From NCBI GenBank assembly GCA_015065425.1, contig SVQH01000029.1, positions 1 to 39,435 on the forward strand: 39,435 nt of DNA, given 5' to 3'. Source of the DNA: Oscillospiraceae bacterium (lineage in GTDB: Bacteria > Bacillota > Clostridia > Oscillospirales > Acutalibacteraceae). Made by a program: the position numbers and the translations under genes. A model generated the notes under the pieces. That model worked only from the letters and a program-made list of their open reading frames with translations. It was not told where the DNA came from and ran no database searches. This document shows, piece by piece, positions 3,175 through 22,021 of this stretch (its first letter is position 1; the number at the start of each line of letters is the position of its first letter).

Positions 3175-3549
3175 ATGCGATTACAGGAATCAGGCGAAAT
3201 GTACCTTGAATCCATATATGTTTTATCAAAAAAGAATCCCTTTGTCCGTTCCGTGGATGTCAGTGAATATCTCGGGTATTCAAAGCCCAGCGTTTCAAGA
3301 GCCGTGGGACTTCTTAAAAATGCAGGATATATCACCGTTGAACCTTCAGGTGCACTGAAGCTTACGGAAGAGGGATATAACATTGCAGATATGATGTTTG
3401 AAAGACACACCTTACTTACAAACTGTCTTGTAAGACTCGGTGTATCCCCTGAAACTGCCGCCGAGGATGCCTGCAAAATTGAGCATGTCATCAGTGAGGA
3501 ATCATTTGAAGCAATAAAAAAACAGATGAATGAAAGCGGTATAGTATGA
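3175..3549 (+). CDS. DtxR/MntR-family metal-dependent transcriptional regulator
   Basis: 124 residues, a normal length for the short, MntR-like members. The N-terminal 65 residues form a winged helix-turn-helix; VDVSEYLGYSKPSVSRAVGL is the recognition part, followed by the wing. The rest is the metal-binding dimerisation domain, with the family pattern RHTLL and, further on, ED-C-IEHVIS. In MntR relatives the Glu and His residues of these stretches bind Mn2+ or Fe2+. No SH3-like third domain is present. The stop overlaps the next start in an ATGA, so it is translationally coupled to the C-S lyase fusion and probably regulates this operon. Family call is firm; the metal and targets are inferred. 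Confidence 0.9.
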   Translation: MRLQESGEMYLESIYVLSKKNPFVRSVDVSEYLGYSKPSVSRAVGLLKNAGYITVEPSGALKLTEEGYNIADMMFERHTLLTNCLVRLGVSPETAAEDACKIEHVISEESFEAIKKQMNESGIV

Positions 3550-5363
3550 AATTTGATTTTACGAGTGTTCCCGACAGGTCATCCTGCGGTTCATCAAAAT
3601 GGAACAGTGCAAAAAACGCAAGTACCGAGGCAGTACCTCTTTCGGTTGCAGACATGGAATTTACAACCGCTGAACCCATAAAAGAAGCTCTTGCAAAACT
3701 TGCAAAGGAACAGATACTGGGTTATACAGACCCTACTCAAGAATATTTTGATGCCGTCATTTCATGGATGAAGAGAAGACACAGCTTCAACATAAAAAAA
3801 GAATGGATAGTAACAACCCCCGGTGTTGTAAATGCACTCGGTATTCTCATTGAAGCCGCAACAAAACCGGGAGACGGAGTAATTATCCTCACCCCCGTGT
3901 ATTACCCCTTTGATATGGCAGTTCTTGCAAAAAGCAGAACTTTCATATACAGTGAACTGCTTCTTAAAGACGGGAAATACGAAATAGATTTTGAAGACCT
4001 CAGAAAAAAGGCGACTCTTCCCCATGCAAAAGCAATAATTTTCTGCAATCCTCACAATCCCATAGGCAGAGTGTGGACAAAGGAAGAACTGAAGAAAGTT
4101 GCAGATATCTGCAATAAAAACGGCGTTTTCATTATCGACGATGAAATACACAACGACCTTATAATGCCCGGCTTTACACATACAGTCATGGCAACACTTG
4201 ATGACAGAACACTTAACAACATAGCCGTATGCACAGCCCCCAGCAAAACCTTCAACCTTGCGGGACTTCAGTGTTCAAATATAATAATTCCCGACAAAAA
4301 GACAAGAGCAAAAGCTGAAGCTTGTATGATGATAAGCATGCAGAATCATCTGAATATTTTTGCGTATGAAGGCTGTAAGAGTGCATATAACAAATGCGAA
4401 GACTGGCTTGACGAGCTTCTGACGGTCATTGATTCAAATGCAAAATATGTTGAGCAGTTTATGTCTGAGAATTTCCCCGAAATTAAAGTTTTTCCCCTTG
4501 AAGGTACATATCTTCAGTGGCTTGATATGAGAAAACTCGGAATGACCCATGTTGAGCTTAGAGAAATGCTGGAGAAGCACGATATTTTCCTTGACTGGGG
4601 CGAAATGTTCGGAGATACGGGCAGAGGCTTCCAGAGAATTAATCTTGCATGTGCAAGAAGCACTCTCGAAAAGACCATGGAAAGATTCAAAGAAGCAGTC
4701 AACGCAGTAAGAGATAATTGGGAGAAAAACGGAAAACCGTACCATAAGACACTTACAAGAGGTGACCATATCGGAGAGTTCATTTATTCTTCCGCTTACG
4801 GAAAAGATATTGACCTTTCAAAAAATATTTTCAAAAAGACACTTCTCATTTTTTCAAGATATTATGAATGTGAAATATGCAGAAAAACTCTTGATACCTT
4901 CAAAAAATATCAGAGGGTATTCAGAATGATGGGAATAGACATAAAATTTATCATACAGTCAGACATAAAAACGCTGTCTGTCGCTCAGAGCAATTATCCG
5001 TTTGAGCTTATAAGCGACCCCGATGCGGTATTTTATGACAAATTCAACATTTTTGAAGCTAACAGCATGATAAACATGGTTGCAGGAGACAAAATGTTTG
5101 AGGAAATGACAAAAGGTGACATCAGAAATCTTCTGGACTCCGATATAATAAATTCCTTTGTATCGGATGAAAATGACACTTCCGCACACAGAGAATTGCA
5201 GCTTTCGGCTTTCATCGGCATAGATAAAAATATGAATGTTATATATTCGCATTATTGCAAAACTATAGGTGATTTCCCTGATGCGGGAAAACTTCTCGGA
5301 GCAATGAGGAAAAATTTGCCCGAACCAAAACATGAATTTACCTACGGGAGGAAAATAAAATGA
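3546..5363 (+). CDS. PatB/MalY-like C-S lyase (PLP) fused to a thioredoxin-fold peroxiredoxin-like domain
   Basis: 605 residues, about 210 more than the usual 390-residue PatB/MalY enzymes. Residues 1-395 are a fold-type I aminotransferase-like domain: VTTPGVVNAL, CNPHNPIGRVW, the Asp in FIIDDEIHNDL, and PLP lysine K234 in APSKTFNLAGLQ. This family splits cystathionine or cysteine conjugates to a thiol or H2S, pyruvate and ammonia. Residues about 400-605 look like a separate thioredoxin-fold domain of the AhpC/TSA-like type. It has a hydrophobic strand, a redox-type C442-E-I-C445 pair, then helix and strand (FIIQSD), and ISDPDAVFYDKF, as in peroxiredoxin-like proteins. The fusion is in one clean frame with no frameshift. 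It is coupled by ATGA overlaps to both neighbours. The lyase call is strong; the redox role of the tail is inferred. Confidence 0.88.
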   Translation: MKFDFTSVPDRSSCGSSKWNSAKNASTEAVPLSVADMEFTTAEPIKEALAKLAKEQILGYTDPTQEYFDAVISWMKRRHSFNIKKEWIVTTPGVVNALGILIEAATKPGDGVIILTPVYYPFDMAVLAKSRTFIYSELLLKDGKYEIDFEDLRKKATLPHAKAIIFCNPHNPIGRVWTKEELKKVADICNKNGVFIIDDEIHNDLIMPGFTHTVMATLDDRTLNNIAVCTAPSKTFNLAGLQCSNIIIPDKKTRAKAEACMMISMQNHLNIFAYEGCKSAYNKCEDWLDELLTVIDSNAKYVEQFMSENFPEIKVFPLEGTYLQWLDMRKLGMTHVELREMLEKHDIFLDWGEMFGDTGRGFQRINLACARSTLEKTMERFKEAVNAVRDNWEKNGKPYHKTLTRGDHIGEFIYSSAYGKDIDLSKNIFKKTLLIFSRYYECEICRKTLDTFKKYQRVFRMMGIDIKFIIQSDIKTLSVAQSNYPFELISDPDAVFYDKFNIFEANSMINMVAGDKMFEEMTKGDIRNLLDSDIINSFVSDENDTSAHRELQLSAFIGIDKNMNVIYSHYCKTIGDFPDAGKLLGAMRKNLPEPKHEFTYGRKIK

Positions 5364-6862
5364 ACAAAACAGACAGTATAAAAAAATATGTACCTAAGAA
5401 AGAAGTTCAGGCTTATGCCATAGCCGCCCTCGGACAGGGACTTGTATACAGCTGTATGTCAAGTTACATAACGGACTATTACATGAATGTTCTGAAGCTC
5501 AACGCAATTTTTGTTATTCTTCTTATGCTTCTTGCCCGTGTATGGGATGCTGTTAACGACCCCATGATGGGTATGATAATGGACAGAAAAACGACAAAAT
5601 GGGGAAGAATGAAGCCTTACCCTCTTGTAACCGCCATTCCCATTGCTATACTTACAATTCTCATGTTCGTCAACCCCGGCTTTGATACGAACAACCAGTC
5701 GATATGGCTTTATGTTTTCGTTACCGTGGTTTATGTTACATGGGGCATGATATACACTGTAAGCGATGTTCCCTTCTGGAGCATGCCCAATGTAATGACT
5801 CCAAACCCCAAGGAAAGAGGTACTCTTATTTCTTATGCAAAAACTGTCGGCGGAATAGGTTCTGCTGTTACAGTAGCACTCCCCATAATAGTCGGATATA
5901 TTATTGCTGATATGCCTTATGAAAAGCAGAATATTTTCAAATATGCAATAATGGCAATTTCAATGTCCGTTATAGGCATGCCTCTGTTCACTCTTTCATC
6001 ATTTAAGACAAAAGAGAGGATACAGATGCCCAATGCCGCAAAAAAACAGCCCGGCGAGATATCAACTCTTAAAAGAATATTCACATGTAAACCTCTCATG
6101 CTTGTTGTTCTTTCAGGCGTTCTTTCCTTCGGAAGATATATGCTTCAGGCAGCCGCTCCTCATGTTGCACGTTATTCAGGATTTTATCTCGGTTCTACAA
6201 AGCCCATGACAGAAGCGGAGATAAATACAAACATATCAAATGTTGCCCTTGTTATTCAGATTTGTGCCGCTGTCGGTATGTTCGGTGCAATGATATTCCT
6301 CCCCAAACTTTACAAAAAGTTTGAATATAAGCACATTATGATAGTTTCATGTATAGGCGGTTTTGTTGCAAGCTGCTTCACTCTTATAATCGGCTGGTCA
6401 ACAAAGAATCTTCTTATATGCATCCCCTTTATGCTCATATCCGCAATTCCTCTCGGTGTTATCAATAACGTTGCATTTGCAATGGTTTGCGACTGTCTTG
6501 ACTTCATGGAATGGAAAACAGGATACAGAGACACAGGATTGGGCTCAGCTTGTCAGTCATTTGTAAACAAGATAGGCAATGCCTTTGCAACTGTTATGAT
6601 AATCGTTATGTACCTCATTGTTCATATCGACGTAAAGAACCTCAATGTCGGCACAGGTGAAGCTGTTGTCAACACGTTAAACTCACTCAATCCCAGCCAG
6701 AACTTTGCAATGTTCTCACTTGTTACAATAGTTCCCGGCATCAGCCTTCTTCTTTGCGCAATTCCTCTTTTCTTCTATGATTTTACAGGCAAGAAAAAAG
6801 AAAAGGTATTCTCTGAACTTGCAGTAATGAGAAAAGAAAGAGGCATTGAAATAGACGAATAA
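5360..6862 (+). CDS. MelB-type (GPH family) sugar:cation symporter
   Basis: 500 residues with about 12 membrane segments. The diagnostic N-terminal signature WDAVNDPMMG followed by DRKTTKWGRMKPYPL is that of glycoside-pentoside-hexuronide:cation symporters (MelB, XynB, UidB type). The second signature region near residue 380 (DCLDFMEWKTGYRDTGLG) is also present. It imports a sugar or glycoside with Na+ or H+. ATG overlaps the stop of the upstream C-S lyase gene, with GGGAGG just before. It is followed by an intrinsic terminator, so it ends the operon. The link to the oxidoreductase/lyase operon downstream is by position only. Substrate unknown. Confidence 0.92.
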   Translation: MNKTDSIKKYVPKKEVQAYAIAALGQGLVYSCMSSYITDYYMNVLKLNAIFVILLMLLARVWDAVNDPMMGMIMDRKTTKWGRMKPYPLVTAIPIAILTILMFVNPGFDTNNQSIWLYVFVTVVYVTWGMIYTVSDVPFWSMPNVMTPNPKERGTLISYAKTVGGIGSAVTVALPIIVGYIIADMPYEKQNIFKYAIMAISMSVIGMPLFTLSSFKTKERIQMPNAAKKQPGEISTLKRIFTCKPLMLVVLSGVLSFGRYMLQAAAPHVARYSGFYLGSTKPMTEAEINTNISNVALVIQICAAVGMFGAMIFLPKLYKKFEYKHIMIVSCIGGFVASCFTLIIGWSTKNLLICIPFMLISAIPLGVINNVAFAMVCDCLDFMEWKTGYRDTGLGSACQSFVNKIGNAFATVMIIVMYLIVHIDVKNLNVGTGEAVVNTLNSLNPSQNFAMFSLVTIVPGISLLLCAIPLFFYDFTGKKKEKVFSELAVMRKERGIEIDE

Positions 6863-6870
6863 TTTATTTA

Positions 6871-6906
6871 CAGACCGTGCGGAAAGTCCGTGCGGTCTGT
6901 TTTTTA
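6871..6906 (+). terminator. Intrinsic terminator after the MelB-type gene
   Basis: The stem of CAGACCGTGCGGA against TCCGTGCGGTCTG (two G-U pairs, short loop) is followed directly by a run of T. Confidence 0.85.
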
Positions 6907-7068: not shown

Positions 7069-7097
7069 TTGCACAAAAACAAAAATAAGTTTATTAT
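7069..7097 (+). promoter_or_regulatory. Promoter of the oxidoreductase/heparinase-like operon
   Basis: TTGCAC (7069-7074), 17-base spacer, TATTAT (7092-7097). A second TATAAT at 7103-7108 lacks a matching -35. The ribosome binding site GGAGG is at 7115-7119. Confidence 0.6.
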
Positions 7098-7128: not shown

Positions 7129-8460
7129 ATGATCCGTAAAGTTTATACAACAACAGAGGAATTTACTCAACAGAACAGAGGTCTTGAGTGTGAACTGCCT
7201 TTTTCCGAAAATTTGGAGGTTCTGAAAAATGAGATTAAAATAAATGACAAAAGTATAAAAAACCGCCTTGCCTGTCAGGCAATGGAGGGCTGTGACGGAA
7301 ATGCTGACGGCACTCCGGGAGAACTTACTCTCAGAAGGTATGACCGTTTTGCAAAAGGCGGAGCAGGACTTATATGGTATGAAGCCACGGCAGTGCTTCC
7401 CGAAGGAAAGGCAAATCCGAGACAGCTTTACATCAATGAAAATAATCTTGATACCTTCAAAAGACAGGTCGAAAGAATAAAAGAAACCGCAATAAAAGAA
7501 AACGGAATTGAGCCTGTTGTAATAATGCAGGCTACGCACTCGGGAAGATATTCCAAGCCCGAGGGCGTCCCCGCTCCTCTTATTGCATACAATAATCCCA
7601 TATTTGAAAAAGACTCCCCCATTTCATCCGAGAGAATTGTCACGGATGAATATATTGACCGAGTAAAAGAAGCACTGATAAATGCCTCTTCTCTTGCTGA
7701 GAAATCAGGTTTTGACGGCGTTGACATAAAAGCGTGTCACAGATACTTAAACTGTGAGCTTCTCTCCGCTTATAAAAGAGAAGGCAGATACGGCGGCGAC
7801 TTTTATAACCGTACACGTCTTTTAAGAGAAAGTATTCTCGGGGCAATGGAAATTACGGGTAAAAACTTTATTGTTACATCAAGAATGAATGTTTATGACG
7901 GTTTTCCTTATCCCTACGGCTTCGGAGTAAACGAGGGTTCGGGAATTGACATAGACCTTTCAGAGCCTGTCGAACTCATAAAAATACTTTCTTCATACGG
8001 TGTGAAACTTCTTAACATCACAATGGGAAATCCCTATTTCAATCCTCATGTAAACCGACCCTTTGCAAAAGGCGGATATACGCATGAAGAGCACCCTCTT
8101 GAGGGAGTTACAAGAATGCTCAGAGGCATTTCAGAAATAAAACGGGAAGTCCCCGAAATGAAAATTATATCTTCTGCCATGTCTTATCTCGGTATTGCCG
8201 CTCCTTTTGTTGCGGCAGGCTTTATTGAACAGGGAGGCTTTGACATAGCAGGCTTCGGAAGAACGGTATTCGCCTACCCTGATTTTGCAAATGACATTCT
8301 TAAAAAAGGCGGGATGGATAAAAACAAAATTTGTATCTGCTGCAGCAAATGTACGGAAATTATGAGAACTCCCGGAGGAACACCCGGCTGTGTCATAAGA
8401 GATAAGGATGTTTATGCACCGATATACAAAAAACAGTGCGGAGGGACAGAAAATGGATAA
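7129..8460 (+). CDS. Old-yellow-enzyme-family NADH:flavin oxidoreductase with C-terminal [4Fe-4S] motif
   Basis: 443 residues from ATG 7129, nine bases after GGAGG; an in-frame TTG at 7108 lies upstream of the ribosome binding site and is rejected. An FMN TIM barrel is indicated by NRLACQAMEG, QATHSGRYSKP, and GFDGVDIKACHRYLNCELLS followed by YGG. At the C-terminal end C-I-C-C-S-K-C and a Cys 12 residues later give C-x2-C-x2-C-x11-C, the usual [4Fe-4S] site of the 2,4-dienoyl-CoA reductase/BaiCD branch. The FAD/NAD domain that makes those enzymes about 650 residues long is absent. Such enzymes reduce activated C=C bonds or carry out related flavin chemistry. It heads a seven-gene operon and overlaps the next gene by 8 bases. 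Substrate unknown, but the context suggests an unsaturated sugar or sugar acid. Confidence 0.88.
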   Translation: MIRKVYTTTEEFTQQNRGLECELPFSENLEVLKNEIKINDKSIKNRLACQAMEGCDGNADGTPGELTLRRYDRFAKGGAGLIWYEATAVLPEGKANPRQLYINENNLDTFKRQVERIKETAIKENGIEPVVIMQATHSGRYSKPEGVPAPLIAYNNPIFEKDSPISSERIVTDEYIDRVKEALINASSLAEKSGFDGVDIKACHRYLNCELLSAYKREGRYGGDFYNRTRLLRESILGAMEITGKNFIVTSRMNVYDGFPYPYGFGVNEGSGIDIDLSEPVELIKILSSYGVKLLNITMGNPYFNPHVNRPFAKGGYTHEEHPLEGVTRMLRGISEIKREVPEMKIISSAMSYLGIAAPFVAAGFIEQGGFDIAGFGRTVFAYPDFANDILKKGGMDKNKICICCSKCTEIMRTPGGTPGCVIRDKDVYAPIYKKQCGGTENG

Positions 8461-9190
8461 AGTGGCTTTAATATCAGGCGTTTCCGCAGGAATCGGTCTT
8501 GCCTCAGCGAGACTTTTTACCGAAAACGGTATCACGGTCGTCGGCATGGGAACAAGAGAAAAGGTTGACAATGCCCCCGAAAAGAACTTTATTTATGTCA
8601 GAGGTGATGTATCCGTTGCCGCTGACAGAAAAAGACTTATTGATACTGCAATAAGGGAATTCGGGCATATTGATATACTCGTAAATGTTGCAGGTGTCGC
8701 ACCGAAGGTAAGGGCAGACCTTCTTGAAATGACGGAAGAAAGCTATGACAGAGTGCTGAATATCAACACAAAAGCCATGCTTTTTCTGACACAGCAAACA
8801 GCTCTTGAAATGATAAAAAACAAGGGCGAAAACAAAGGAGCCATTGTAAACATCTCCTCTCTTTCAGCATACACAAGCTCTGTTTCCCGCGGAGAATACT
8901 GCATTTCAAAAGCAGGGGTATCCATGATTACAAAGCTTTTTGCTGACCGACTCTCAGAATACGGGATTACCGTAAACGAAGTACGTCCCGGAATTATTGC
9001 TACCGACATGACGTCTAAGGTAAAAGAAAAATATGATAACCTTATTGAAGACGGACTTCTTCCCATAAAAAGATGGGGAACACCTGAAGATGTTGCAAAA
9101 GCAGTATTTGCACTTGTAAACGGCTCTCTCCCCTACATCACGGGGCAATCTCTTGATGTTGACGGCGGCTTTCATATAAGAAGACTGTAA
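8453..9190 (+). CDS. Short-chain dehydrogenase/reductase (SDR, FabG-like)
   Basis: 245 residues, typical classical SDR length. Start ATG 8453 lies inside the end of the upstream gene and follows GCGGAGGG. A Rossmann glycine motif SGVSAGIG is at the N-terminus, NVAG marks strand 4, and the catalytic triad is visible as the Ser in NISSLSAY and the YCISK (YxxxK) motif. RPGI and a C-terminal GQSLDVDGG are also typical. It would interconvert an alcohol and a ketone with NAD(P)H. The FabG-like sequence does not mean fatty-acid synthesis here: the operon is carbohydrate/redox in character, and sugar-acid SDRs such as KduD look alike. Exact substrate unknown. Confidence 0.9.
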   Translation: MDKVALISGVSAGIGLASARLFTENGITVVGMGTREKVDNAPEKNFIYVRGDVSVAADRKRLIDTAIREFGHIDILVNVAGVAPKVRADLLEMTEESYDRVLNINTKAMLFLTQQTALEMIKNKGENKGAIVNISSLSAYTSSVSRGEYCISKAGVSMITKLFADRLSEYGITVNEVRPGIIATDMTSKVKEKYDNLIEDGLLPIKRWGTPEDVAKAVFALVNGSLPYITGQSLDVDGGFHIRRL

Positions 9191-9200
9191 AGGATGTATT

Positions 9201-11069
9201 ATGGATTATCTGAATTTTGATACAGTAGTTATAGGTACGGGAGCGGCAGGCTACAATGCCGCCTGTGAAATAAAAAAACTCTGCGATAAAAATGTTTGCA
9301 TTGTCACGGAGAGTAAAATGGCGGGCACATCAAGAAACACAGGGAGCGATAAACAAACCTATTATAAACTGACACTGGGTGGTAATACACCCGATTCTGT
9401 AAGAAAAATGGCAGATGACCTTTTTTCGGGCGGCTCGGTTGACGGGGATAATGCACTTTGTGAAGCAGCTCTTTCCTCTGCATGCTTTTATAATCTCTGC
9501 TCTCTCGGTGTCCCCTTTCCAAAAAACAGATACGGAGAATATGTGGGCTATAAAACAGACCACGACCCTTATATGAGAGCGACATCGGCGGGACCGCTTA
9601 CTTCAAAATTTATGACAGAAGTTCTGGAGAGACAAGCAGAAAAACTTTCACTTCCCGTATATGATGAGCTTCTTGCAGTTGAAATAATAATTCATGAAAA
9701 CTCCGTAAAAGGGGTTTTGTGTCTTGATAAAAAAAGCGGAGAATATAAAGTTTTCCGTTGTAACAATGTTGTTCTTGCAACGGGCGGTCCTGCAGGAATA
9801 TATCAAAATACCGTGTATCCTGACGGTCACACGGGTTCTTCGGGACTTGCTCTTAAAGCAGGTGCCGCATTACAGAATATGACAGAATGGCAGTACGGTC
9901 TTTCAAGCGTTTCACCAAAATGGAACGTTTCGGGAACATATATGCAGGTGCTCCCCCGTTTTGTTTCCGTGGATGAATACGGTATTGAACATGAATTTTT
10001 AAGTGATTATTTTTCCGATATTTATGAAGCCCTTTCCTTCGTATTCTTAAAGGGTTATCAGTGGCCCTTTGACTCAAAAAAAGCAAAAAACGGTTCATCT
10101 CAGATAGACCTTGCAGTTTACAGCGAATGCGTGAATAAAAACAGAAAGGTTTTTCTTGATTTTAGAAAAAATCCTTTCGGACTTGATAAAATAGAATATG
10201 ATAAACTTTCAGATGAGGCATTCTGCTATCTCAGAAATGCCGATGCACTTTTCGGCACTCCCATTGAAAGACTGAAAAAAATGAACGCTCCCGCCATAGA
10301 ACTTTATAAAAGTAAAGGCGTGAATTTAGAAAAAGAAATGCTTGAAATCGCCCTTTCGTCTCAGCACAATAACGGCGGAATAGCAGTAAATATGTGGTGG
10401 CAGACCGATATCCCGGGACTTTTTGCCGCAGGTGAATGTGCAGGCACTCACGGAATAACACGTCCCGGAGGCTCAGCACTCAATGCGGGACAAGCCGGTT
10501 CTCTGAGAGCGGCACAGTTTATTTCCGTCAAAGAAGATAAAGAATACGACAATACTGAATTTATCCGACTTGCCGAAGCTTCACTCAGTCGGCACAAAGA
10601 ATTCAGAGAAAGAATTTCAGGTAATGAAAACACGGCAGCGGCTCTTCTTACAAAAATCAGAACAGATATGAGTGAAAATGCCGCCGCTGTCAGAAACATT
10701 GAAAAAATAGGCATAATGACCAAGTACCGCAAAAAGGAACTTGAAAACTTCCCCTGTAACATTACAGCCAAGGATACAAAGGGACTTATTGATGCTTATA
10801 AATATTATGATGCTCTGTTGACACAGACAGCCGTTCTCATATCTATGGAAAATTACTTCAATGAAGCAAAAACCGATCGCGGCAGTGCGGTTTTTGTCTC
10901 AAAGGAAAAAGAAGACTCGGCAAATGATAAAAGAGATATGATACAAAGCGTTGTTTATAAAAACGAAGAATTTTCCGTCTGTTGGAGAAAAGTAAGACCC
11001 CTTCCCGAGGATGACAGTTTTTTCGAGAATGTGTGGAGACTATACAGAGAGAATAAAAATATATATTAA
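9201..11069 (+). CDS. FAD-dependent oxidoreductase, fumarate reductase/L-aspartate oxidase flavoprotein type
   Basis: 622 residues. An N-terminal dinucleotide-binding motif VVIGTGAAGYNAA is followed by an acidic strand end (VTESK), NVVLATGG in the middle, and the FAD-family closing motif GECAGTHGITRPGGSALNAGQAG near residue 415, followed by a helical C-terminal domain, as in SdhA/FrdA/NadB relatives. The capping domain sits between. No signal peptide or heme domain is seen, so it is cytoplasmic and needs an electron donor; the OYE-like protein or ferredoxin are candidates. Its start is 10 bases after the SDR stop, with AAGGATG as ribosome binding site. Flavoprotein call firm; role in reducing a double bond or oxidising a sugar acid is inferred. 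Confidence 0.87.
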   Translation: MDYLNFDTVVIGTGAAGYNAACEIKKLCDKNVCIVTESKMAGTSRNTGSDKQTYYKLTLGGNTPDSVRKMADDLFSGGSVDGDNALCEAALSSACFYNLCSLGVPFPKNRYGEYVGYKTDHDPYMRATSAGPLTSKFMTEVLERQAEKLSLPVYDELLAVEIIIHENSVKGVLCLDKKSGEYKVFRCNNVVLATGGPAGIYQNTVYPDGHTGSSGLALKAGAALQNMTEWQYGLSSVSPKWNVSGTYMQVLPRFVSVDEYGIEHEFLSDYFSDIYEALSFVFLKGYQWPFDSKKAKNGSSQIDLAVYSECVNKNRKVFLDFRKNPFGLDKIEYDKLSDEAFCYLRNADALFGTPIERLKKMNAPAIELYKSKGVNLEKEMLEIALSSQHNNGGIAVNMWWQTDIPGLFAAGECAGTHGITRPGGSALNAGQAGSLRAAQFISVKEDKEYDNTEFIRLAEASLSRHKEFRERISGNENTAAALLTKIRTDMSENAAAVRNIEKIGIMTKYRKKELENFPCNITAKDTKGLIDAYKYYDALLTQTAVLISMENYFNEAKTDRGSAVFVSKEKEDSANDKRDMIQSVVYKNEEFSVCWRKVRPLPEDDSFFENVWRLYRENKNIY

Positions 11070-11078
11070 GGTGATACT

Positions 11079-11819
11079 ATGCAGCAGCTCGGTCTTGTTT
11101 CAATATCCTTCAGAAATCTTTCTCCTGAAGAAATAATCAGAAAAGTAAAAAAAGCGGGGCTTTCCTGTATTGAATGGGGAAGCGATATTCATGCACCTTG
11201 TGATGATAACGAAAAATTAAAAAGAATAGCATCTCTTCAGAATCAATACGGAATATCCTGCTGTTCCTACGGCACGTATTTCCGTCTCGGCGTAAATGAT
11301 ACCGAAGAGCTTCAGAAATATATCGATGCCGCGAAAATACTCGGTACTGATGTTTTAAGATTATGGTGCGGTGATAAATCAACGGGAGAATATTGCGAAG
11401 ATGAAGAAAACCGTCTTTTCGACGAATGCAAAAAAGCTTCTGAAATTGCGGAAAAAAACGGAGTCACCCTCTGTCTTGAATGTCACAACGGCACTTACAC
11501 CGAATTAAAAGAGGGAGCAATTAAGCTTATGAAGGTGATAAACTCCCCTGCCCTTCGTATGTACTGGCAACCTAATCAGTTTACATCCCACGATGAAAAC
11601 AAACGGTATGCAAGACTTCTCGCTTCCTTTACAAAAAACATACATGTCTTTAACTGGACAAGCACTGAAAGATTTCCCCTTGCGGATGCGGTGTACGTTT
11701 GGAAAGAATATCTCTCATATTTCAATAAAAACCAGACACTGCTTCTTGAATTTATGCCCGATGACAGCATATATTCACTGATTACAGAAGCAGAAAGTCT
11801 CAGAAAAATTGCGGAGTGA
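11079..11819 (+). CDS. Xylose-isomerase-like TIM-barrel protein (sugar phosphate isomerase/epimerase family)
   Basis: 246 residues of the AP endonuclease 2/xylose-isomerase-like barrel. Family landmarks are GLSCIEWGSDIHAP near the N-terminus, the metal-ligand Glu in VTLCLECHNGT, a His in NIHVFNW and the final Glu in LLLEFMPD. Where many members carry an Asp ligand (often in an 'l.lD..H' strand) this one reads MYWQPNQ, so the metal site may be altered or absent. Likely chemistry is isomerisation, epimerisation or dehydration of a sugar or inositol-like compound. It starts 9 bases after the FAD gene with AAGGTGATACT before ATG. Substrate is not predictable. Confidence 0.85.
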   Translation: MQQLGLVSISFRNLSPEEIIRKVKKAGLSCIEWGSDIHAPCDDNEKLKRIASLQNQYGISCCSYGTYFRLGVNDTEELQKYIDAAKILGTDVLRLWCGDKSTGEYCEDEENRLFDECKKASEIAEKNGVTLCLECHNGTYTELKEGAIKLMKVINSPALRMYWQPNQFTSHDENKRYARLLASFTKNIHVFNWTSTERFPLADAVYVWKEYLSYFNKNQTLLLEFMPDDSIYSLITEAESLRKIAE

Positions 11820-11824
11820 TAAAA

Positions 11825-12826
11825 ATGAAAGCTGTATTTTTATGTAACGATAAAAACAATCCCGAAAGAGTTTATTCGGAAGATACAAGAAAAGAACTTC
11901 ATAATCTTTCGGGACTTGAAAACAGTGTTTATTCAAAGGATGAAGTCCTTGATAACCCTACCCTTTTTAAAGATACGGAGTATGTTTTCTCAACCTGGGG
12001 AATGCCTGTTTTTTCAGAAAGTGAGATAAAAAATATTTTTCCGTCTCTGAAATGTGTATTCTACGGTGCGGGCACGGTCCAGTTTTTTGCAAAACCATTT
12101 CTCGCAAACGGAATAAAAGTGTTTTCGGCATGGGCGGCAAATGCAGTACCTGTTGCTGAATACACCGTTTCTCAGATAATACTTGCAAACAAAGGCTTTT
12201 TTGCAATGTCCCGTTATCAGAGCGTGGGAGACTTAAAAAAAGCGGCAGAGCTCAAGGAATGCTATCCCGGTTCATTCGGTGAATATGTCGGCATAATAGG
12301 TGCAGGTATGATAGGTTCACTCGTAATTGAAATGCTAAAAAGCTACAAGCTGAAGGTAAAGGTTTTCGACCCGTTTTTAAGTGATGAAAAGGCAGAATAT
12401 CTCGGAGTACAAAAATGTTCTCTTGATGAACTGTTTTCAACCTGCTTCGTTATTTCAAATCACCTTGCCAATAACAGCGAAACAAAAGGAATGTTAAACA
12501 AAGAGTATTTCAGCAAAATGCGAAAATACAGCACATTTATAAATACGGGCAGAGGTGCACAGGTGGTAGAAAAAGATCTTTGCGAAATACTTAAAAGCCG
12601 TGAGGATATTACCGCAATTCTTGATGTTACGGAGCCTGAACCTCCCGAGAAGGGACATCCCTTTTATACACTCGGAAACTGCATACTTACACCGCATATT
12701 GCGGGAAGCTACGGTGACGAGGTAAAAAGGATGGGTGAATATATGCTCTGTGAATATAAAAAATATATTTGCGATGAAAAAACAGAATATGAAGTTACAC
12801 TGAAAATGCTTGAAACCATGGCGTAA
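11825..12826 (+). CDS. D-isomer-specific 2-hydroxyacid dehydrogenase family protein
   Basis: 333 residues from ATG 11825, eight bases after GCGGAG. A GTG at 11816 overlaps the previous stop but also the ribosome binding site, so it is rejected. The Rossmann motif GIIGAGMIG is followed by a strand ending in FDP. Catalytic Arg (NTGRGAQVV), Glu (DVTEPEPPE) and His (LTPHIAGSYG) are all present. Family members reduce 2-keto acids to D-2-hydroxyacids with NAD(P)H, or oxidise them. In a sugar-acid operon it may handle glyoxylate, hydroxypyruvate or a keto sugar acid. The N-terminal quarter is divergent. Confidence 0.9.
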   Translation: MKAVFLCNDKNNPERVYSEDTRKELHNLSGLENSVYSKDEVLDNPTLFKDTEYVFSTWGMPVFSESEIKNIFPSLKCVFYGAGTVQFFAKPFLANGIKVFSAWAANAVPVAEYTVSQIILANKGFFAMSRYQSVGDLKKAAELKECYPGSFGEYVGIIGAGMIGSLVIEMLKSYKLKVKVFDPFLSDEKAEYLGVQKCSLDELFSTCFVISNHLANNSETKGMLNKEYFSKMRKYSTFINTGRGAQVVEKDLCEILKSREDITAILDVTEPEPPEKGHPFYTLGNCILTPHIAGSYGDEVKRMGEYMLCEYKKYICDEKTEYEVTLKMLETMA

Positions 12827-12838
12827 AGGAGATAAATT

Positions 12839-14779
12839 ATGAAAAACATATTTTTCCCTGAAGAAAAAATACAGTTTATTAAAAACTGCACCGATGAAAG
12901 ATGCAAAATACTTTATAATAAAGCCATAAATCAGGCTGAAAAGGCACTTGAAATAATCCCTCTTGAAGAGGAAAGCGTTCAGGTTGACGGAGAGGGATAT
13001 GCCGTACAGCATGAAAACTACGGTGATGCAGCAGGTCCCTTTACAGGCAATATGCCGTATCTGTCATTCGCTTATGAAATAACGGGGGACGACAAATATT
13101 TTCTTAAAGCAAAAGAGCTTATGCTTAAATACTGCTCTTATTCAAGGTGGTACGGCAAAGGCTCCATAGGAAAAGGAGAACTGAACACAGGGCATTTTCT
13201 CACGGGAATGAGTTACGGCTGGGCAACTTTTTCCCATAAATTTACGGAAGACGAAAAAAAATATCTCGCTGAAAGAATATATACCCTCGGCATCCGTGCA
13301 CAGCTTGACGACTGGCTTCTTCCTGGAACAAAAATACACTGCTTTGACACAATGGGACATAACTGGTGGCCCGTTTGCGTTTCTTCGGGGGCACTTGCCG
13401 CCATTACCATGAGTGAATATCTTCCTGACGGCAGAACCCTTGCCGATAAAGCCGCAGAAGGACTTCGTGAATGGTTTTATTATGAAGGCAATCCCATAAA
13501 CATGAAGCCTGCCACACTTGATAACGGTGCTTTTTATGAAAGTGTGGGATACTATAACTATGCACTCTTCGAATATCTTCGCTTTTCGGAAGCTTACCTT
13601 GCCGTTACGGGAAAGCCGCCTTTTGATGATGAGGAAATAATAAGAAAATCGGCAGAATTTTTTATAAATACATTTTATCCGTCTTCAAAAGGCGATTATA
13701 TAGTCGGCTTTGGTGACACGGATGACACACAGTTTTCATCATCTGTTCCGTTAATGCTTTCAAGATATCCCGATATCGGAATTCTTCGTTTTTATATTAA
13801 TAACAGAAAGCATTCCGAGAACTCGGATATATTGTTAAAACTCATACGATTTGAGCAACTGTATCTTCTCCCTGAAAAAATACCCGAAAAGCTCTCGGTT
13901 TACTATAAAAATATTGGTTGGTCGGTTTTCAGAGATTCCTTTGAGGAAGACAGCACTTTACTTGCCGTAAAATGCGGTGACTCATGGAATCATGCACATT
14001 GCGATGCAGGGCATTTCATTTTTTTCAGAAACGGAATTCCCGAAATTTTCGACTCCTCCTGCTGTTCATACGGCAACGACATTTACAGGGATTATTATGT
14101 TCAGTCAAAAGCACACAATGTTGTGCTTTGTAACGGAAAAGGACAGTTTTCCGATGACCATCACCACCATGTAAGACCAAAAGGCGAATTACATAATTTT
14201 ACCGACAAAGGCGATTTCCGTTATGTCTGTGCTGATGCATCAGGTCCCATGGGACGACATTTCAGGAAACATCTGCGTCACTTTATAATGGTAAAAGATA
14301 TCATTATCATTTATGATGATATATGGGCTTATGAAGAAAGCGAACTTAATTTCCTTTTACACTCGGAAGAAAACTCATGTTTCAGAATGCTGACATCGTG
14401 TGAAGAGAGAACCGAAACGGGATATCTCGGCAAGGATATTCACGAGGTTACATTCAAATCATTCAACAGAAAAACAGATGATTACGGCAGAGGAAAATTT
14501 GTTTCCGCTTTGTGTCTCGATGAAAAAAAGGAGCCTGTTTTTGAAGAGATTGAGGACGGGTTCAAGGTAACATACGGAAATATAAAGATATACATAAATA
14601 TATTAAGCGACAACCGTGTTATGCACAGAAACTGCTTCAATACTTTTGACGAAATACTTACGGATGCTACGGTTTTAATTGACAATAACGGGGAATATTC
14701 TGTTGTAAACGGCTCCATTGTCAGAAAAGACGGAAAGTCACTTCTTGACAGATTTTCAAGGATAACGGACAAAATCTGA
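12839..14779 (+). CDS. Heparinase II/III-like protein, cytoplasmic (putative polysaccharide lyase)
   Basis: 646 residues with AAAGGAGATAAATT before ATG. No signal peptide. The N-terminal half is an (alpha/alpha) toroid with GHNWWPVCVSSGALAA and DNGAFYESVGYYNYALFEY near residue 230, which carries the Asn/Tyr candidates of this fold. The C-terminal half is the beta-sandwich typical of heparinase II/III: GDSWNHAHCDAGHF (H385, H387, D389), then a nearby stretch rich in His. The class cleaves uronate-containing glycans (heparin, alginate, chondroitin) by beta-elimination, leaving an unsaturated sugar. Being cytoplasmic, it would act on imported oligosaccharides. Some relatives have lost lyase activity, so lyase function is inferred. 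It sits mid-operon after four redox genes. Confidence 0.88.
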   Translation: MKNIFFPEEKIQFIKNCTDERCKILYNKAINQAEKALEIIPLEEESVQVDGEGYAVQHENYGDAAGPFTGNMPYLSFAYEITGDDKYFLKAKELMLKYCSYSRWYGKGSIGKGELNTGHFLTGMSYGWATFSHKFTEDEKKYLAERIYTLGIRAQLDDWLLPGTKIHCFDTMGHNWWPVCVSSGALAAITMSEYLPDGRTLADKAAEGLREWFYYEGNPINMKPATLDNGAFYESVGYYNYALFEYLRFSEAYLAVTGKPPFDDEEIIRKSAEFFINTFYPSSKGDYIVGFGDTDDTQFSSSVPLMLSRYPDIGILRFYINNRKHSENSDILLKLIRFEQLYLLPEKIPEKLSVYYKNIGWSVFRDSFEEDSTLLAVKCGDSWNHAHCDAGHFIFFRNGIPEIFDSSCCSYGNDIYRDYYVQSKAHNVVLCNGKGQFSDDHHHHVRPKGELHNFTDKGDFRYVCADASGPMGRHFRKHLRHFIMVKDIIIIYDDIWAYEESELNFLLHSEENSCFRMLTSCEERTETGYLGKDIHEVTFKSFNRKTDDYGRGKFVSALCLDEKKEPVFEEIEDGFKVTYGNIKIYINILSDNRVMHRNCFNTFDEILTDATVLIDNNGEYSVVNGSIVRKDGKSLLDRFSRITDKI

Positions 14780-14838
14780 TTGATTTTTATATCAGAAGAT
14801 TTTATAAAACACAACAATAAACTTAATACGGTGAAAAA

Positions 14839-15564
14839 ATGGATATAAAAAAATTAAAAGAAGAACTTCTCAGAGAATACAGATTTCAGACAGAGCTTCA
14901 CGCACATACCTCTCCTGCAAGCTCCTGCTCACAGATTGTACCTGAAAAACTGGCAGAAATATATAAAGACCTCGGATATTCTGCAGTGTGTGTGGTAAAC
15001 CACTTTGTATACGAATATCAGGGACTTTCAAAGAAAGAATTGATCGACAGATATTTCGGAGATTTTGAAAGAGCCGAAAAAAGAGGAAAAGAAATCGGAA
15101 TCAAAGTTATTCTGGGAGCAGAAATCAGATTTAACGAAAACGATAATGACTATCTGATTTACGGTGTAACCAGAGATATGCTTGAAGAAATATATAACCT
15201 TCTTCCCTACGGTGTTGATAATTTCCGTAAGGTTTATAAAATGCCCGACAGCGTATTTTTACAGGCTCATCCCTTCAGGGAGGGCATGGAAAGGGTTGAG
15301 CCCGCAATTCTTGACGGAATTGAAGTCTATAATGTACATCCAAATCACAATTCCAAAATTGGTCTTGCCGCTGTTTACGCAAAGGAACAGGGATTTTCGA
15401 TAATTACATCGGGCTCAGATTTTCATCACCCTGACAGAAAACATGAGGGTGTCTCTGCAATAAGAACCAAGGTTTTACCCGAAGATTCTTTTCATCTTGC
15501 ATCAATTCTCAGAAGCGGAGACTATCTTATGGAAATCGGAAGAAATAATATCATAATTCCTTAA
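14839..15564 (+). CDS. PHP-domain metal-dependent phosphoesterase
   Basis: 241 residues. Metal-binding motifs of the PHP fold are H21-A-H23 (ELHAHTSPASSC), VNHFV, GAEIRF, QAHPFRE and GSDFHHPD. The length fits stand-alone PHP proteins (trpH/YcdX-like) rather than polymerase subunits. These hydrolyse phosphoesters such as nucleotide ends, 3',5'-bisphosphates or sugar/histidinol phosphates. It is the last gene of the operon, 59 bases after the lyase gene, behind a weak ribosome binding site (GGTGAAAAA). Substrate unknown; a sugar phosphate would suit the context. Confidence 0.87.
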   Translation: MDIKKLKEELLREYRFQTELHAHTSPASSCSQIVPEKLAEIYKDLGYSAVCVVNHFVYEYQGLSKKELIDRYFGDFERAEKRGKEIGIKVILGAEIRFNENDNDYLIYGVTRDMLEEIYNLLPYGVDNFRKVYKMPDSVFLQAHPFREGMERVEPAILDGIEVYNVHPNHNSKIGLAAVYAKEQGFSIITSGSDFHHPDRKHEGVSAIRTKVLPEDSFHLASILRSGDYLMEIGRNNIIIP

Positions 15565-15785: not shown

Positions 15786-15869
15786 GCGGGTGTGGTGGAA
15801 TTGGCAGACACGCAAGATTTAGGTTCTTGTGCCAAAAGCATGCAGGTTCGACCCCTGTCACCCGCACCA
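15786..15869 (+). tRNA. tRNA-Leu (anticodon UAG)
   Basis: 84 bases including an encoded CCA end. The acceptor stem GCGGGTG pairs with CACCCGC, the anticodon stem is CAAGA/TCTTG with loop TTTAGGT (anticodon TAG), and the T stem GCAGG/CCTGT closes the loop TTCGACC. The extra arm is short for a leucine tRNA. An intrinsic terminator follows seven bases after CCA. Confidence 0.95.
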
Positions 15870-17150: not shown

Positions 17151-17178
17151 CCTTGTAAACTGTTCAGGAGGTGAAAAC

Positions 17179-17361
17179 ATGAACAACAACAATAACCAGA
17201 ACAATAAGAACAACCAGAATAACAAGAATAATCAGAGTAACAAGAATAATCAGAATAATCAGAATAACCAGAACAATCAGAATAACCAGAACAATCAGAA
17301 TAACCAGAATAACCAGAATAACCAGAATAACAGAAATAATCAGAACAATCAGAACAAATAA
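17179..17361 (+). CDS. Small Asn/Gln-repeat low-complexity protein
   Basis: 60 residues made almost only of Asn and Gln with a few Lys, one Ser and one Arg, in NNQ and NNK units; no Cys, aromatic or hydrophobic residue after Met1. The DNA is a run of AAY-AAY-CAG/AAG triplets. What makes it look real is a near-perfect ribosome binding site AGGAGGTG (17167-17174) placed five bases before ATG, and a downstream hairpin/terminator. Predicted to be disordered and highly polar; such sequences occur in spore-coat and prion-like proteins, but no function can be assigned. The repeat is prone to replication slippage, so its length may vary between strains. The opposite strand has an open frame rich in Ile/Leu/Val that is a by-product of the repeat. 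Confidence 0.65.
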   Translation: MNNNNNQNNKNNQNNKNNQSNKNNQNNQNNQNNQNNQNNQNNQNNQNNQNNRNNQNNQNK

Positions 17362-17469
17362 CAATATCCATTTTTTGAATTTTACTGTTCCGACTGTATT
17401 TGTTTGACGGATTTCATAATTTTTTCGCAAATTTTGATTTAAATCGAACAAATTCTCAGCATAAGCACA

Positions 17470-20953: not shown

Positions 20954-21904
20954 TCATATCTCAGCTTCAATAAAGCCGATACTTTCTCTGCCTGTAAGCA
21001 TATTGGCGGTATTTCTTGCATTAAAATATATTCTTATTTTTCCGTTATATACCGTTAAATTACAGGCATATACGAACTGTTCCATCCATTTGTATTTTTT
21101 TTCAGGAACGATAAGCGGCTTTACAAACTCAAAGCTTTCACCGTCATCTGACCTTAAAAGCATAACGGCGGAATGGCTTTTACCGTTTTCTTCAAATATG
21201 CCGTTCTGAAGTCCGATATAGCAATCTTTTAGTCTGTACACCTTAAGACAGCCGGAACATAAATTCAAATACTTACTGTTTTTATCGGGGCTTATTATCG
21301 GTTTTTCCCTTGAAACAAATCCCTCAGACGGCTTTTCACTTTCGGCAAATGAGATATGAGTAGGCTCGGAAAAACCGCAGTCTTTAATAAATGTCTGACC
21401 GCATGAATAATACAGGCGGTATTTCCCGTCTTTTTCCAGAAGAAACGGATTGGAGATTGCAATACCCTTTTCGTCTTTTTCAAAGCTTCTTGTATGTTCT
21501 ATTACTTTTTTCGGTTTTATCCAATTCAACAAATCAGATGACTCGGTAAGATATATTTCCGAATGCCATTTTACACCGAAAAGGCTTAAAGCATTGAGAA
21601 TAACAGGTCTTGTTCTCTCATAATAGAGATAATACTTCCCGTCAATAAAATTAATATCGGGACGCATAGCTCTGTTTACTATCTTCTGCACCTTTGTGAA
21701 GGATATTCCGTCAGAACTTTCATAATGATATACTCCGAAAAACGTATGACAGAAGAGATGCCATTTTTTATCCCTTGAGGTATCGGGAGTCAGTATTGAC
21801 GGGTCCGCAACAACAAAGCTGTTTAACGGATGCTTCAATACGGGATTATTGAAATAAAGCCTGAAGTCTGCATTTTTTATATCTTCAAATGTCAAATTGA
21901 ACAT
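20954..21904 (-). CDS. Five-bladed beta-propeller glycosidase-like protein (GH43/GH117-related)
   Basis: 316 residues with a weak GGTGATA ribosome binding site. Recurrent blade motifs are visible: VVADPSIL (D34, where GH43/117 enzymes have a catalytic base), KWHLFCH, SDGISFTKVQKI, MRPDINFIDGKYYLYYE, DLLNWIKPKKVIE, SNPFLLEKDGKYRLYYS, DDGESFEFVKPL and IRIYFNAR. This pattern of D/E-containing strands followed by YYLYY is usual in the GH43/GH32/GH117/GH130 propeller clan. No signal peptide is seen, so it is cytoplasmic. It probably hydrolyses or phosphorolyses an oligosaccharide, but which sugar is unknown. It is divergent from the MFS/sulfatase pair with facing promoters. Confidence 0.75.
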   Translation of the reverse strand: MFNLTFEDIKNADFRLYFNNPVLKHPLNSFVVADPSILTPDTSRDKKWHLFCHTFFGVYHYESSDGISFTKVQKIVNRAMRPDINFIDGKYYLYYERTRPVILNALSLFGVKWHSEIYLTESSDLLNWIKPKKVIEHTRSFEKDEKGIAISNPFLLEKDGKYRLYYSCGQTFIKDCGFSEPTHISFAESEKPSEGFVSREKPIISPDKNSKYLNLCSGCLKVYRLKDCYIGLQNGIFEENGKSHSAVMLLRSDDGESFEFVKPLIVPEKKYKWMEQFVYACNLTVYNGKIRIYFNARNTANMLTGRESIGFIEAEI

Positions 21905-21922
21905 ATTATTATCACCGTTTTT

Positions 21923-21951
21923 ATAATATCATATAAATCTTTCATTTTCAA
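21923..21951 (-). promoter_or_regulatory. Promoter of the propeller glycosidase-like gene
   Basis: Minus strand TTGAAA (21946-21951), 17-base spacer, TATTAT (21923-21928). Confidence 0.7.
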
Positions 21952-21962
21952 CTGTTATCGAT

Positions 21963-21991
21963 TTGACATTAAATTACTCCTTTGCTACAAT
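21963..21991 (+). promoter_or_regulatory. Promoter of the MFS/sulfatase operon
   Basis: TTGACA (21963-21968), 17-base spacer, TACAAT (21986-21991). Its -35 end lies 12 bases from the facing promoter of the propeller gene, so one regulator could control both. Confidence 0.8.
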
Positions 21992-22021
21992 AAGTTTAAT
22001 AAATATGAAAGGAATAATTTT

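Follow-up and report, generated by a model that had tools for sequence, protein, structure and literature searches.

Gene organization of the operon

The question raised by this locus is what a compact set of redox and lyase-fold genes might do in an Oscillospiraceae bacterium. The window, which is the whole stretch of DNA analysed (39,435 nucleotides, contig SVQH01000029.1), contains a run of seven tightly packed ORFs at positions 7129-15564, all on the + strand. The junctions in gene order are an overlap of 8 nucleotides, gaps of 10 and 9, an overlap of 4, and gaps of 12 and 59. The ORF coordinates and a Pfam match for each gene bear out the seven-gene redox/lyase run described by the sequence-only reading. 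The features are as follows.

5360..6862, + strand: GPH-type sugar/hexuronide:cation symporter (MFS_2), upstream of the operon; Pfam MFS_2, 2.1e-60
6870..6900, + strand: intrinsic-terminator-like hairpin, 3' of the symporter gene; 14 pairs, 8 of them G-C, then a T-run
7070..7097, + strand: weak promoter-like hexamers, 5' of the operon; 9/12 match
7129..8460, + strand: OYE-type FMN barrel, 443 aa, core gene 1; Pfam Oxidored_FMN, 1.7e-19
8453..9190, + strand: short-chain dehydrogenase/reductase (SDR), core gene 2; Pfam adh_short_C2, 1.2e-50
9201..11069, + strand: FrdA/NadB-type FAD flavoprotein, 622 aa, core gene 3; Pfam FAD_binding_2, 6e-30
11079..11819, + strand: AP_endonuc_2 (xylose-isomerase-like) barrel, AP2; Pfam AP_endonuc_2, 3.3e-17
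11816..12826, + strand: D-2-hydroxyacid dehydrogenase (HADH); Pfam 2-Hacid_dh_C, 1.6e-42
12839..14779, + strand: heparinase II/III-like lyase-fold protein, optional; Pfam Hepar_II_III_C, 3.2e-15
14839..15564, + strand: PHP-domain putative phosphoesterase, optional; Pfam PHP, 2.5e-6

A single promoter for the operon is plausible, with the hexamers at 7070-7097 as the candidate; the scan found 42 promoter-like sites versus 38.2 +/- 5.1 in shuffled sequences, which is no excess. The upstream symporter scored 229.5 bits against TIGR00792 (gph), slightly below the cut-off of 231.35. A GPH gene also lies directly 5' of the OYE gene in the loci L005-L007.

Conservation of the core trio across Clostridia

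The conserved unit is smaller than the operon, and consists of the four-Cys OYE-type flavoprotein, the SDR, and the FrdA-type flavoprotein. Of the FrdA loci in Clostridia, 57 had 6 kb of flanking sequence on either side; among these, the OYE was found in 54 and the SDR in 52. The order OYE-SDR-FrdA was kept in 58 of the 59 loci with all three genes called, and the trio was immediately adjacent in 47/59, with median gaps of 3 and 10 bp. The locus genes were called with a purpose-written script, and the counts were repeated by tblastn. These loci cannot be treated as independent, since L021 and L022 come from a single isolate and the set of genomes with an FrdA gene may repeat species of the locus set. 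The whole trio was inspected in the genome of the window and in 40 others, out of 63 genomes with an FrdA gene (8 of the 63 FrdA matches being only 35-41% identical); both OYE and SDR were present in 30 of the 40 other stretches. The redox genes are thus not a chance assembly.

The neighbourhood comparison proposed by the sequence-only reading gave a mixed result, since the trio is conserved and the full seven-gene set is not fixed. The AP2 barrel and the D-2-hydroxyacid dehydrogenase are frequent partners of the trio, found in 25/57 (window-type barrel) and 29/57 well-flanked loci, respectively; the heparinase-like gene and the PHP gene are optional. In L084 and L086, apparently unrelated neighbours were seen. 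A herbivore host was named in 21 of 36 locus titles, in one case as 'Lapin'. No description of the OYE-SDR-FrdA gene combination was found in the literature searched.

Sequence features of the trio enzymes

Residue conservation was counted for the OYE, FrdA, AP2, and HADH proteins in a separate alignment for each. The window OYE shares the Oxidored_FMN barrel of the OYE family (YqjM/NamA, and the Fe-S forms BaiCD and 2,4-dienoyl-CoA reductase). It retains the second active-site His, the Tyr, and the four Cys residues (C402, C405, C408, and C421), which are kept in 62/63 aligned sequences, with one gap. K201, H204, and Y206 are invariant (63/63); in all 63 trio OYEs, Lys takes the place of the first His of the family motif HxxHxY. 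Both the FMN barrel and the four-Cys motif of the Fe-S enzymes (DCR/BaiCD type) were therefore found by sequence, and Fe-S binding is predicted. Unlike the Fe-S forms, the trio OYEs are missing the C-terminal FAD/NAD module, except in L082, where the OYE is fused to Fer4_20 and Pyr_redox_2 domains, and likewise, by sequence, in L090. Pfam identified the barrel alone in the 443-aa window protein, with no C-terminal FAD/NAD(P)H domains. The OYE is no longer than 457 aa in 61/63 sequences, which is too short to accommodate the FAD/NAD domains at the C-terminus of BaiCD-type enzymes.

The SDR scored 284.7 bits against PRK12745 (cut-off 250), and its PDB matches include 4da9 (2.9e-51) and 4z9y (2.7e-38), the latter of which we take to be a KduD. 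The score against the KduD model TIGR01832 was 157 bits, under the cut-off of 338.85. Judged by these matches, the SDR is related to KduD and falls outside the KduD model.

The FrdA-type protein belongs to the FAD_binding_2 family, as do the fumarate reductase and L-aspartate oxidase flavoproteins, and contains no FMN or Fe-S domain by Pfam. H389 and R421 are invariant (76/76) and match conserved positions of E. coli FrdA in the alignment, presumably the substrate-binding residues in fumarate reductase. Unlike in fumarate reductase, the QYH motif reads QYG (Gly in 76/76), and the operon has no gene for an Fe-S or membrane partner. The capping region, which contains the catalytic Arg in fumarate reductase, could not be aligned with that enzyme. 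The structure model of this protein is weak (mean pLDDT 68.8).

The three enzyme classes match those of equol formation. In that pathway, the daidzein reductase belongs to the NADH:flavin oxidoreductase family, the dihydrodaidzein reductase is an SDR like the 3-oxoacyl-ACP reductases, and the tetrahydrodaidzein reductase is a succinate dehydrogenase/fumarate reductase-like flavoprotein (PMC4381290). OYE-class, SDR, and FrdA-class genes are also found there in one cluster, a likeness at the level of enzyme class (PMC4381290, PMC8618169). The trio might accordingly act on a plant phenolic or hydroaromatic acid (flavonoid, or quinate/shikimate type), taking an enone to a ketone, an alcohol, and a deoxy product, while the sugar genes would handle the released glycone or glucuronate. 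We consider this unlikely. Rhamnosidase genes lie 3' in L020 and L021, in line with such a role, but most of the OYEs are too short for the BaiCD-type domains, and the trio, unlike the equol set, is tied to uronate genes and to Clostridia. KDPG aldolase is near-universal in the genomes with an FrdA gene, and some loci have UxaC, UxuA, KdgK, GH28, or lyase-fold neighbours; these are sugar-acid features.

Relationship with uronate catabolism

Genome content and some of the loci link the FrdA gene to hexuronate catabolism. The KDPG aldolase family was found in 62/63 Clostridia genomes with the FrdA gene versus 185/328 without it (Fisher 9e-13), in genomes that are phylogenetically non-independent. 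In 6/62 genomes, the FrdA gene has an aldolase gene no more than 10 kb away (expected 0.72, P 1e-4); this chance assumes uniform gene placement for a tally of 89 matches in 62 genomes, and the 10 kb limit was set after the cases were seen. The adjacency of UxaC is weak (2/62 genomes, P 0.05). The aldolase link may reflect plant-polymer lifestyles generally.

A KdgK, Eda, or UxaC gene is present in 8/57 well-flanked loci, and none of the three was found in the fetched stretch of the other 49/57. Eda and KdgK lie 3' of the trio in L070, L093, and L105, and downstream on the opposite strand in L017; L096 has Eda and a kinase grouped with KdgK, and L092 has KdgK. By NCBIfam, the L070 aldolase is above its model cut-off, and the L070 and L092 kinases are below theirs. 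UxaC is 3' of the trio in L080 and L097, above its cut-off. Downstream in L021, GH78 and GH28 are above the cut-off and GH106 is below its own. A GH30 gene is found in L005, with counterparts in L006 and L007. The uronate or sugar-acid setting suggested earlier is thus supported by the surroundings of part of the relatives and by the aldolase counts.

The genome of the window (95.06% complete) encodes Eda, UxaC, and a KdgK-like kinase, which was assigned by similarity (41% identical to the L070 kinase). A KDG kinase, by that similarity, and a KDPG aldolase of the KDG pathway are therefore both present. Two proteins between Eda and KdgK were named by eye as UxuB and UxuA. The reported absence of KduI, KdgK, and Eda holds for the operon, and no KduI was recognised in the 95% complete genome; Eda and KdgK are encoded elsewhere in it. 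Given this, and given that a few relatives carry these genes next to the trio, the proposed bypass of the KDG route is not required for the product. The single PF04962 (KduI/IolB) match was taken as IolB, because its neighbours, by eye, look like an inositol operon.

The operon shares with the 4-deoxy-5-ketouronate route (KduI-KduD-KdgK-Eda) the KdgK and Eda of the genome and of a few relatives, and the KduD-related SDR; it differs in the lack of a recognised KduI and in two flavoproteins that have no known role there. One explanation is that the operon only replaces KduI/KduD as a 5-keto-4-deoxyuronate bypass. The unrecognised KduI and the relationship of the SDR to KduD fit this, and AP2 barrels include aldose-ketose isomerases. 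Such a bypass would not require OYE or FrdA, the genome has no GH88 match, and PF04962 (KduI and IolB) shows no depletion where the FrdA gene is present (25/63 genomes, versus 74/328 without it). These counts weaken KduI replacement as the main role, and we regard it as improbable.

Variable partner genes

In the AP2 barrel, E134, H136, Q164, H189, and E224 are invariant (29/29), as are R246, E275, and H294 in the D-2-hydroxyacid dehydrogenase (32/32). Among the additional operon proteins scanned, Gfo/Idh accounts for 15/86, further AP2 barrels for 7/86, and UxuA for 1/86; the 86 were picked by eye from at least 150 of 156 unassigned proteins, and these fractions are not a random sample. Together with the frequency of the window-type barrel and a GH4 gene in L092, these proteins are consistent with oxidoreductive sugar-acid epimerisation or 3-keto-type deglycosylation, for which the YcjS/YcjR and C-glycoside systems are precedents. 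The SDR, Gfo/Idh, and AP2 proteins would make and unmake keto sugars, and the flavoproteins would exchange electrons with no net reduction. However, the window operon has no Gfo/Idh gene, neither Gfo/Idh nor the AP2 type occurs in 23/57 well-flanked loci, and fusion of the OYE to an NAD(P)H-type module suggests net electron input. This role also appears doubtful to us, at about the level of a phenolic substrate.

The heparinase-like protein retains the C-terminal domain of the heparinase II/III-type lyases (PL35, PL15), at 56.7 bits against a curated cut-off of 24. N175, Y238, H385, H387, D389, H426, and N427 are invariant (7/7), and we take them to be the candidate catalytic positions of these lyases. 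Unlike those lyases, it has weak similarity to solved structures (PL35 chondroitinase, 5e-7; oligo-alginate lyase, 5.7e-6) and no signal peptide by eye; from this reading of the N-terminus, it is probably cytoplasmic. Its structure model is also weak (mean pLDDT 57.3). The window-type gene is found in L006, L007, L010, and L029, and a related type (HepB) in L016, L028, L069, and L071. A fixed lyase operon was rejected because the close relatives L004 and L005 have the trio without the heparinase gene, which is therefore not a constant member as first thought. In the PHP protein, H21, H23, E95, H144, D194, and H196 are conserved (5/5), and its gene is found in L004-L007.

Another protein of about 550 aa, c9, is encoded 3' of the HADH gene in L024, L028, L030, L032, L033, L070, and L071, and between HADH and OYE in L105. 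It was tried as a heparinase relative and rejected (hhalign probabilities of 0.1 and 0.7 versus the two heparinase types). No PDB match up to E 5 was found for c9, and no Pfam match in three members scanned. None of HepII, HepB, or c9 was found in the fetched stretch of 43/57 well-flanked loci.

Proposed pathway

Direct observations are the gene content, the conservation of the trio as a unit, the association at genome level between the FrdA gene and KDPG aldolase, and the other uronate genes in some loci. Our main reading, with a probability of roughly 0.4, is that the operon serves the breakdown of plant oligosaccharides that contain uronate, and that its reductive module feeds a modified uronate into the 2-keto-3-deoxygluconate route. 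We infer its substrate, direction, step order, and product as follows. The GPH symporter would import a small hexuronide, and the heparinase-type protein may free or eliminate a substituent at the uronate O4. At other loci, its place would be taken by another lyase-fold gene, a GH88-like gene, or a rhamnosidase gene, or be left empty. The unsaturated or keto sugar acid formed in this way would then be the substrate of the OYE-SDR-FrdA trio, working as a single reductive unit. The OYE would serve as an Fe-S/FMN ene-reductase, the SDR would be a keto/hydroxyl reductase, and C=C or C-O would be reduced by a second flavoprotein, the FrdA-type protein. Isomerisation and reduction of 2-keto forms might fall to the AP2 barrel and the D-2-hydroxyacid dehydrogenase. 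The pathway would yield 2-keto-3-deoxygluconate or a plain hexuronate for entry into KdgK-Eda or UxaC-UxuB-UxuA, encoded elsewhere in the genome.

To our knowledge, neither an OYE nor an FrdA-type flavoprotein is required in any established uronate route. More specifically, and quite tentatively, the trio might convert an unsaturated or O4-substituted hexuronate (e.g. 4-O-methyl or rhamnosyl) to 2-keto-3-deoxygluconate, as equol-type chemistry on sugar acids. Anaerobic gut Clostridia would then have a reductive route that does without KduI/KduD and has not been described before.

In summary, the analyses define a gene trio for assay, and enzyme class alone is not a sound basis for annotating OYE-SDR-FrdA clusters of gut genomes as polyphenol reductases. 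If the proposed pathway is true, anaerobic Clostridia possess a route for sugar acids that is assembled from flavin ene-reductases. Such a route would close a gap in the fermentation of capped, methylated, and unsaturated uronates from pectin, arabinogalactan, or xylan.

Structure and setting of the operon

The seven genes form a tightly packed run, as had been claimed from the sequence alone, and their Pfam families agree with the assignments made then. The operon and its flanking signals are as follows.

7129-15564, + strand: seven genes with junctions of -8, +10, +9, -4, +12, and +59 bases; Pfam families, in order, Oxidored_FMN (OYE-like), short-chain dehydrogenase (SDR), FAD_binding_2 (FrdA-type), AP_endonuc_2 (AP2 barrel), 2-Hacid_dh_C (D-2-hydroxyacid dehydrogenase, HADH), Hepar_II_III_C (heparinase-type), and PHP
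6870-6900: terminator-like hairpin, 3' of the upstream GPH symporter gene
7070-7097: promoter-like site upstream of the operon

A single promoter had been proposed for the operon. The site at 7070-7097 is a candidate, but the window scan was no better than its shuffles, and one promoter is plausible only.

Other features were observed in the window. A tRNA-Leu (15786-15869) directly follows the operon. A PatB-type C-S lyase of 605 aa (3546-5363; TIGR04350, 396 bits) has a Pfam match spanning residues 30-380 only, with about 200 C-terminal residues left without an assignment. On the - strand, an ORF with a high content of I, V, and L (17164-17451) covers a tandem repeat (17191-17354; period 9, 18.2 copies), and sigma-70-type hexamers were matched 12/12 with an 18-base spacer (2997-2968). 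The downstream GH43-like, MFS transporter, and sulfatase genes (20954-25013) are apparently a separate glycan unit.

Conservation in Clostridia

Scanning genome contigs with the FrdA protein, a search limited to close relatives, yielded 36 loci. By title, these were from Clostridiales (4), Oscillospiraceae (4), Ruminococcaceae (1), Lachnospiraceae (1), and otherwise Clostridia; a herbivore host is named in 21 of the 36 titles. The FrdA family (E <= 1e-60) was found in 63 of the 391 Clostridia genomes searched, including the window's own genome. Of the 62 genomes besides its own, 40 contributed a stretch each, which brought the scan loci to 76; 57 of these had at least 6 kb on both sides (well-flanked loci). 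By tblastn, OYE, SDR, HADH, and AP2 were found in 63, 68, 32, and 28 of the 76 loci, and in 54, 52, 29, and 25 of the well-flanked loci, respectively. The order OYE-SDR-FrdA on one strand (the trio) was retained in 58 of 59 loci with all three genes called, as immediate neighbours in 47. The exceptions are L034 and L072, with no nearby OYE, and L089, L099, L100, L101, and L102, with no SDR (L101 also has no OYE); these last five clusters hold a gene that by eye looks like a zinc-type alcohol dehydrogenase. Pairwise distances were correlated across loci (for example, OYE-SDR r 0.67, OYE-FrdA 0.54, SDR-FrdA 0.71, FrdA-AP2 0.89), as expected for co-inherited genes; relatedness alone would give such correlations too. 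The neighbourhood comparison showed that the operon is real and conserved, but its fixed parts are fewer than the sequence-only reading claimed.

The heparinase-type gene, which had been counted in the set, is not fixed. The GPH-to-PHP order of the window was retained in L006 and L007; the heparinase gene is absent from L004, and both it and HADH from L005. Because L004 and L005 keep the trio, AP2, and PHP, the heparinase-type gene is optional. At least one of three kinds of protein (window-type heparinase, HepB, or c9) was encoded in 14/57 well-flanked loci. HepB is related to the window-type heparinase (hhalign probability 97.7); c9 was also compared by hhalign and is not related to it by sequence. 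The c9 proteins (L032:13636-15279 and relatives) have about 550 aa and, in eight loci, are encoded close to HADH or OYE, with no Pfam match in three members and no PDB match. An AraC-type regulator was found in 25 of the 57 well-flanked loci, in 21 of these on the opposite strand, 3.5-5.4 kb upstream. The same loci contained Gfo/Idh (14), c9 (7), HepB (5, that of L021 on the opposite strand), window-type heparinase (4), GPH (4), UxaC (4), KdgK (3), Eda (3), PHP (3), and GH4 (1).

Conserved residues and structural features

The window OYE consists of a barrel and four cysteines. Unlike BaiCD-type enzymes, it has no C-terminal FAD/NAD domains recognised by Pfam. Its motif diKachrYl aligns with eiHaahgYl of the NADPH dehydrogenase 3gr7; Lys201, His204, and Tyr206 were kept in 63/63 aligned sequences, and the four cysteines in 62/63, the remaining one being a gap. 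In L082 (11763-14417), Pfam finds Fer4_20 and Pyr_redox_2 domains fused to the OYE, and a similarly long OYE, judged by sequence, is encoded in L090 (7179-9800); the other 61 of 63 have at most 457 aa. The fusion suggests that the fused forms draw electrons from NAD(P)H, and hence a reductive role. No module of the Fer4_20/Pyr_redox_2 type was found within the window operon.

In the FrdA-type protein (AlphaFold model, mean pLDDT 68.8), a His and an Arg match conserved residues in the alignment with E. coli fumarate reductase; both were kept in 76/76 aligned sequences. The His of the fumarate reductase QYH motif is Gly in all 76, and the capping region could not be aligned. The nearest PDB entries of the SDR are 4da9, 4one, and 4z9y; 4z9y is a 2-deoxy-D-gluconate 3-dehydrogenase (KduD). 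Arg246, Glu275, and His294 of HADH were kept in 32/32 aligned sequences, and Glu134, His136, Gln164, His189, and Glu224 of the AP2 barrel in 29/29. The heparinase-type protein is weakly similar to PL35 chondroitinase and oligo-alginate lyase. Its Asn175, Tyr238, His385, His387, Asp389, His426, and Asn427, kept in 7/7, presumably have catalytic roles; the AlphaFold model (mean pLDDT 57.3) is helical in the first half and beta in the second, as expected for the family.

Relationship to uronate genes

KdgK, Eda, and KduI had been noted as missing from the operon. An Eda gene and a KdgK-like kinase are present in the window's own genome, with two proteins between them that by eye look like UxuB and UxuA; a UxaC gene and a second Hepar_II_III protein are also present. 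No KduI was recognised in this genome, because the sole PF04962 match sits among genes read as an inositol operon; at 95% completeness this absence is not proof. GH88 had no match in the same 95% complete genome. A simple replacement of KduI is disfavoured by the counts of PF04962, a family mixing KduI and IolB (25/63 FrdA genomes vs 74/328 others).

KDPG aldolase (PF01081) was found in 62/63 FrdA genomes vs 185/328 others (Fisher P 9e-13), and in the high-quality subset in 40/40 vs 151/278. Aldolase genes lie within 10 kb of the FrdA gene, a limit picked after the cases were seen, in 6/62 genomes (G028, G128, G228, G307, G312, and G343; expected 0.72, P 1e-4). A KDG-kinase-type gene and an aldolase gene were found after the trio in L070, L093, L096, and L105; in L017 they are also downstream, on the opposite strand, and L092 encodes a GH4 protein as well as a KDG-type kinase. 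Scored with NCBIfam models, the aldolase of L070 exceeds its cut-off, and the kinases of L070 and L092 fall short of theirs. UxaC, present in 38/62 FrdA genomes (counted in these only), is downstream in L080 and L097, and within 10 kb in 2/62 genomes (expected 0.35, P 0.05). GH78 and GH28 matches in L021 are above their cut-offs and its GH106 match is below; the GH88 match of L076 is slightly below. A GH30 gene of L005 falls into one group with L006 and L007 genes, and a protein 59% identical to its product is encoded elsewhere in the window's own genome. Among 86 further operon proteins, picked by eye out of 156, were matches to Gfo/Idh (15), AP2 (7), URO-D (3), and UxuA (1). URO-D-family genes near the trio, in L020 and L075 (Pfam) and in L091 and L093 (grouped together), possibly serve methyl transfer. 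Against the uronate link, neighbours at some loci look unrelated, and KdgK, Eda, and UxaC are all missing from the fetched stretch in 49/57 well-flanked loci. The operon's connection to the KDG route is closer than the sequence-only reading assumed.

Proposed function

No description of this gene combination was found in the freely accessible literature searched. The closest precedent for the enzyme set is equol formation, whose enzymes are an NADH:flavin oxidoreductase, an SDR resembling 3-oxoacyl-ACP reductases, and a flavoprotein of the succinate dehydrogenase/fumarate reductase type (PMC4381290); the likeness is by enzyme class. Arabinogalactan side chains bear glucuronate, 4-O-methyl-glucuronate, and rhamnose caps (PMC8377490), and O4-capped glucuronates would therefore be candidate substrates. 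The GPH symporter would import a hexuronide, on which the lyase-type protein, where present, might act. The trio would then reduce an unsaturated or keto sugar acid arising from it. Most likely, the trio is a single reductive unit, whose product would enter the KDG or the hexuronate isomerase route.
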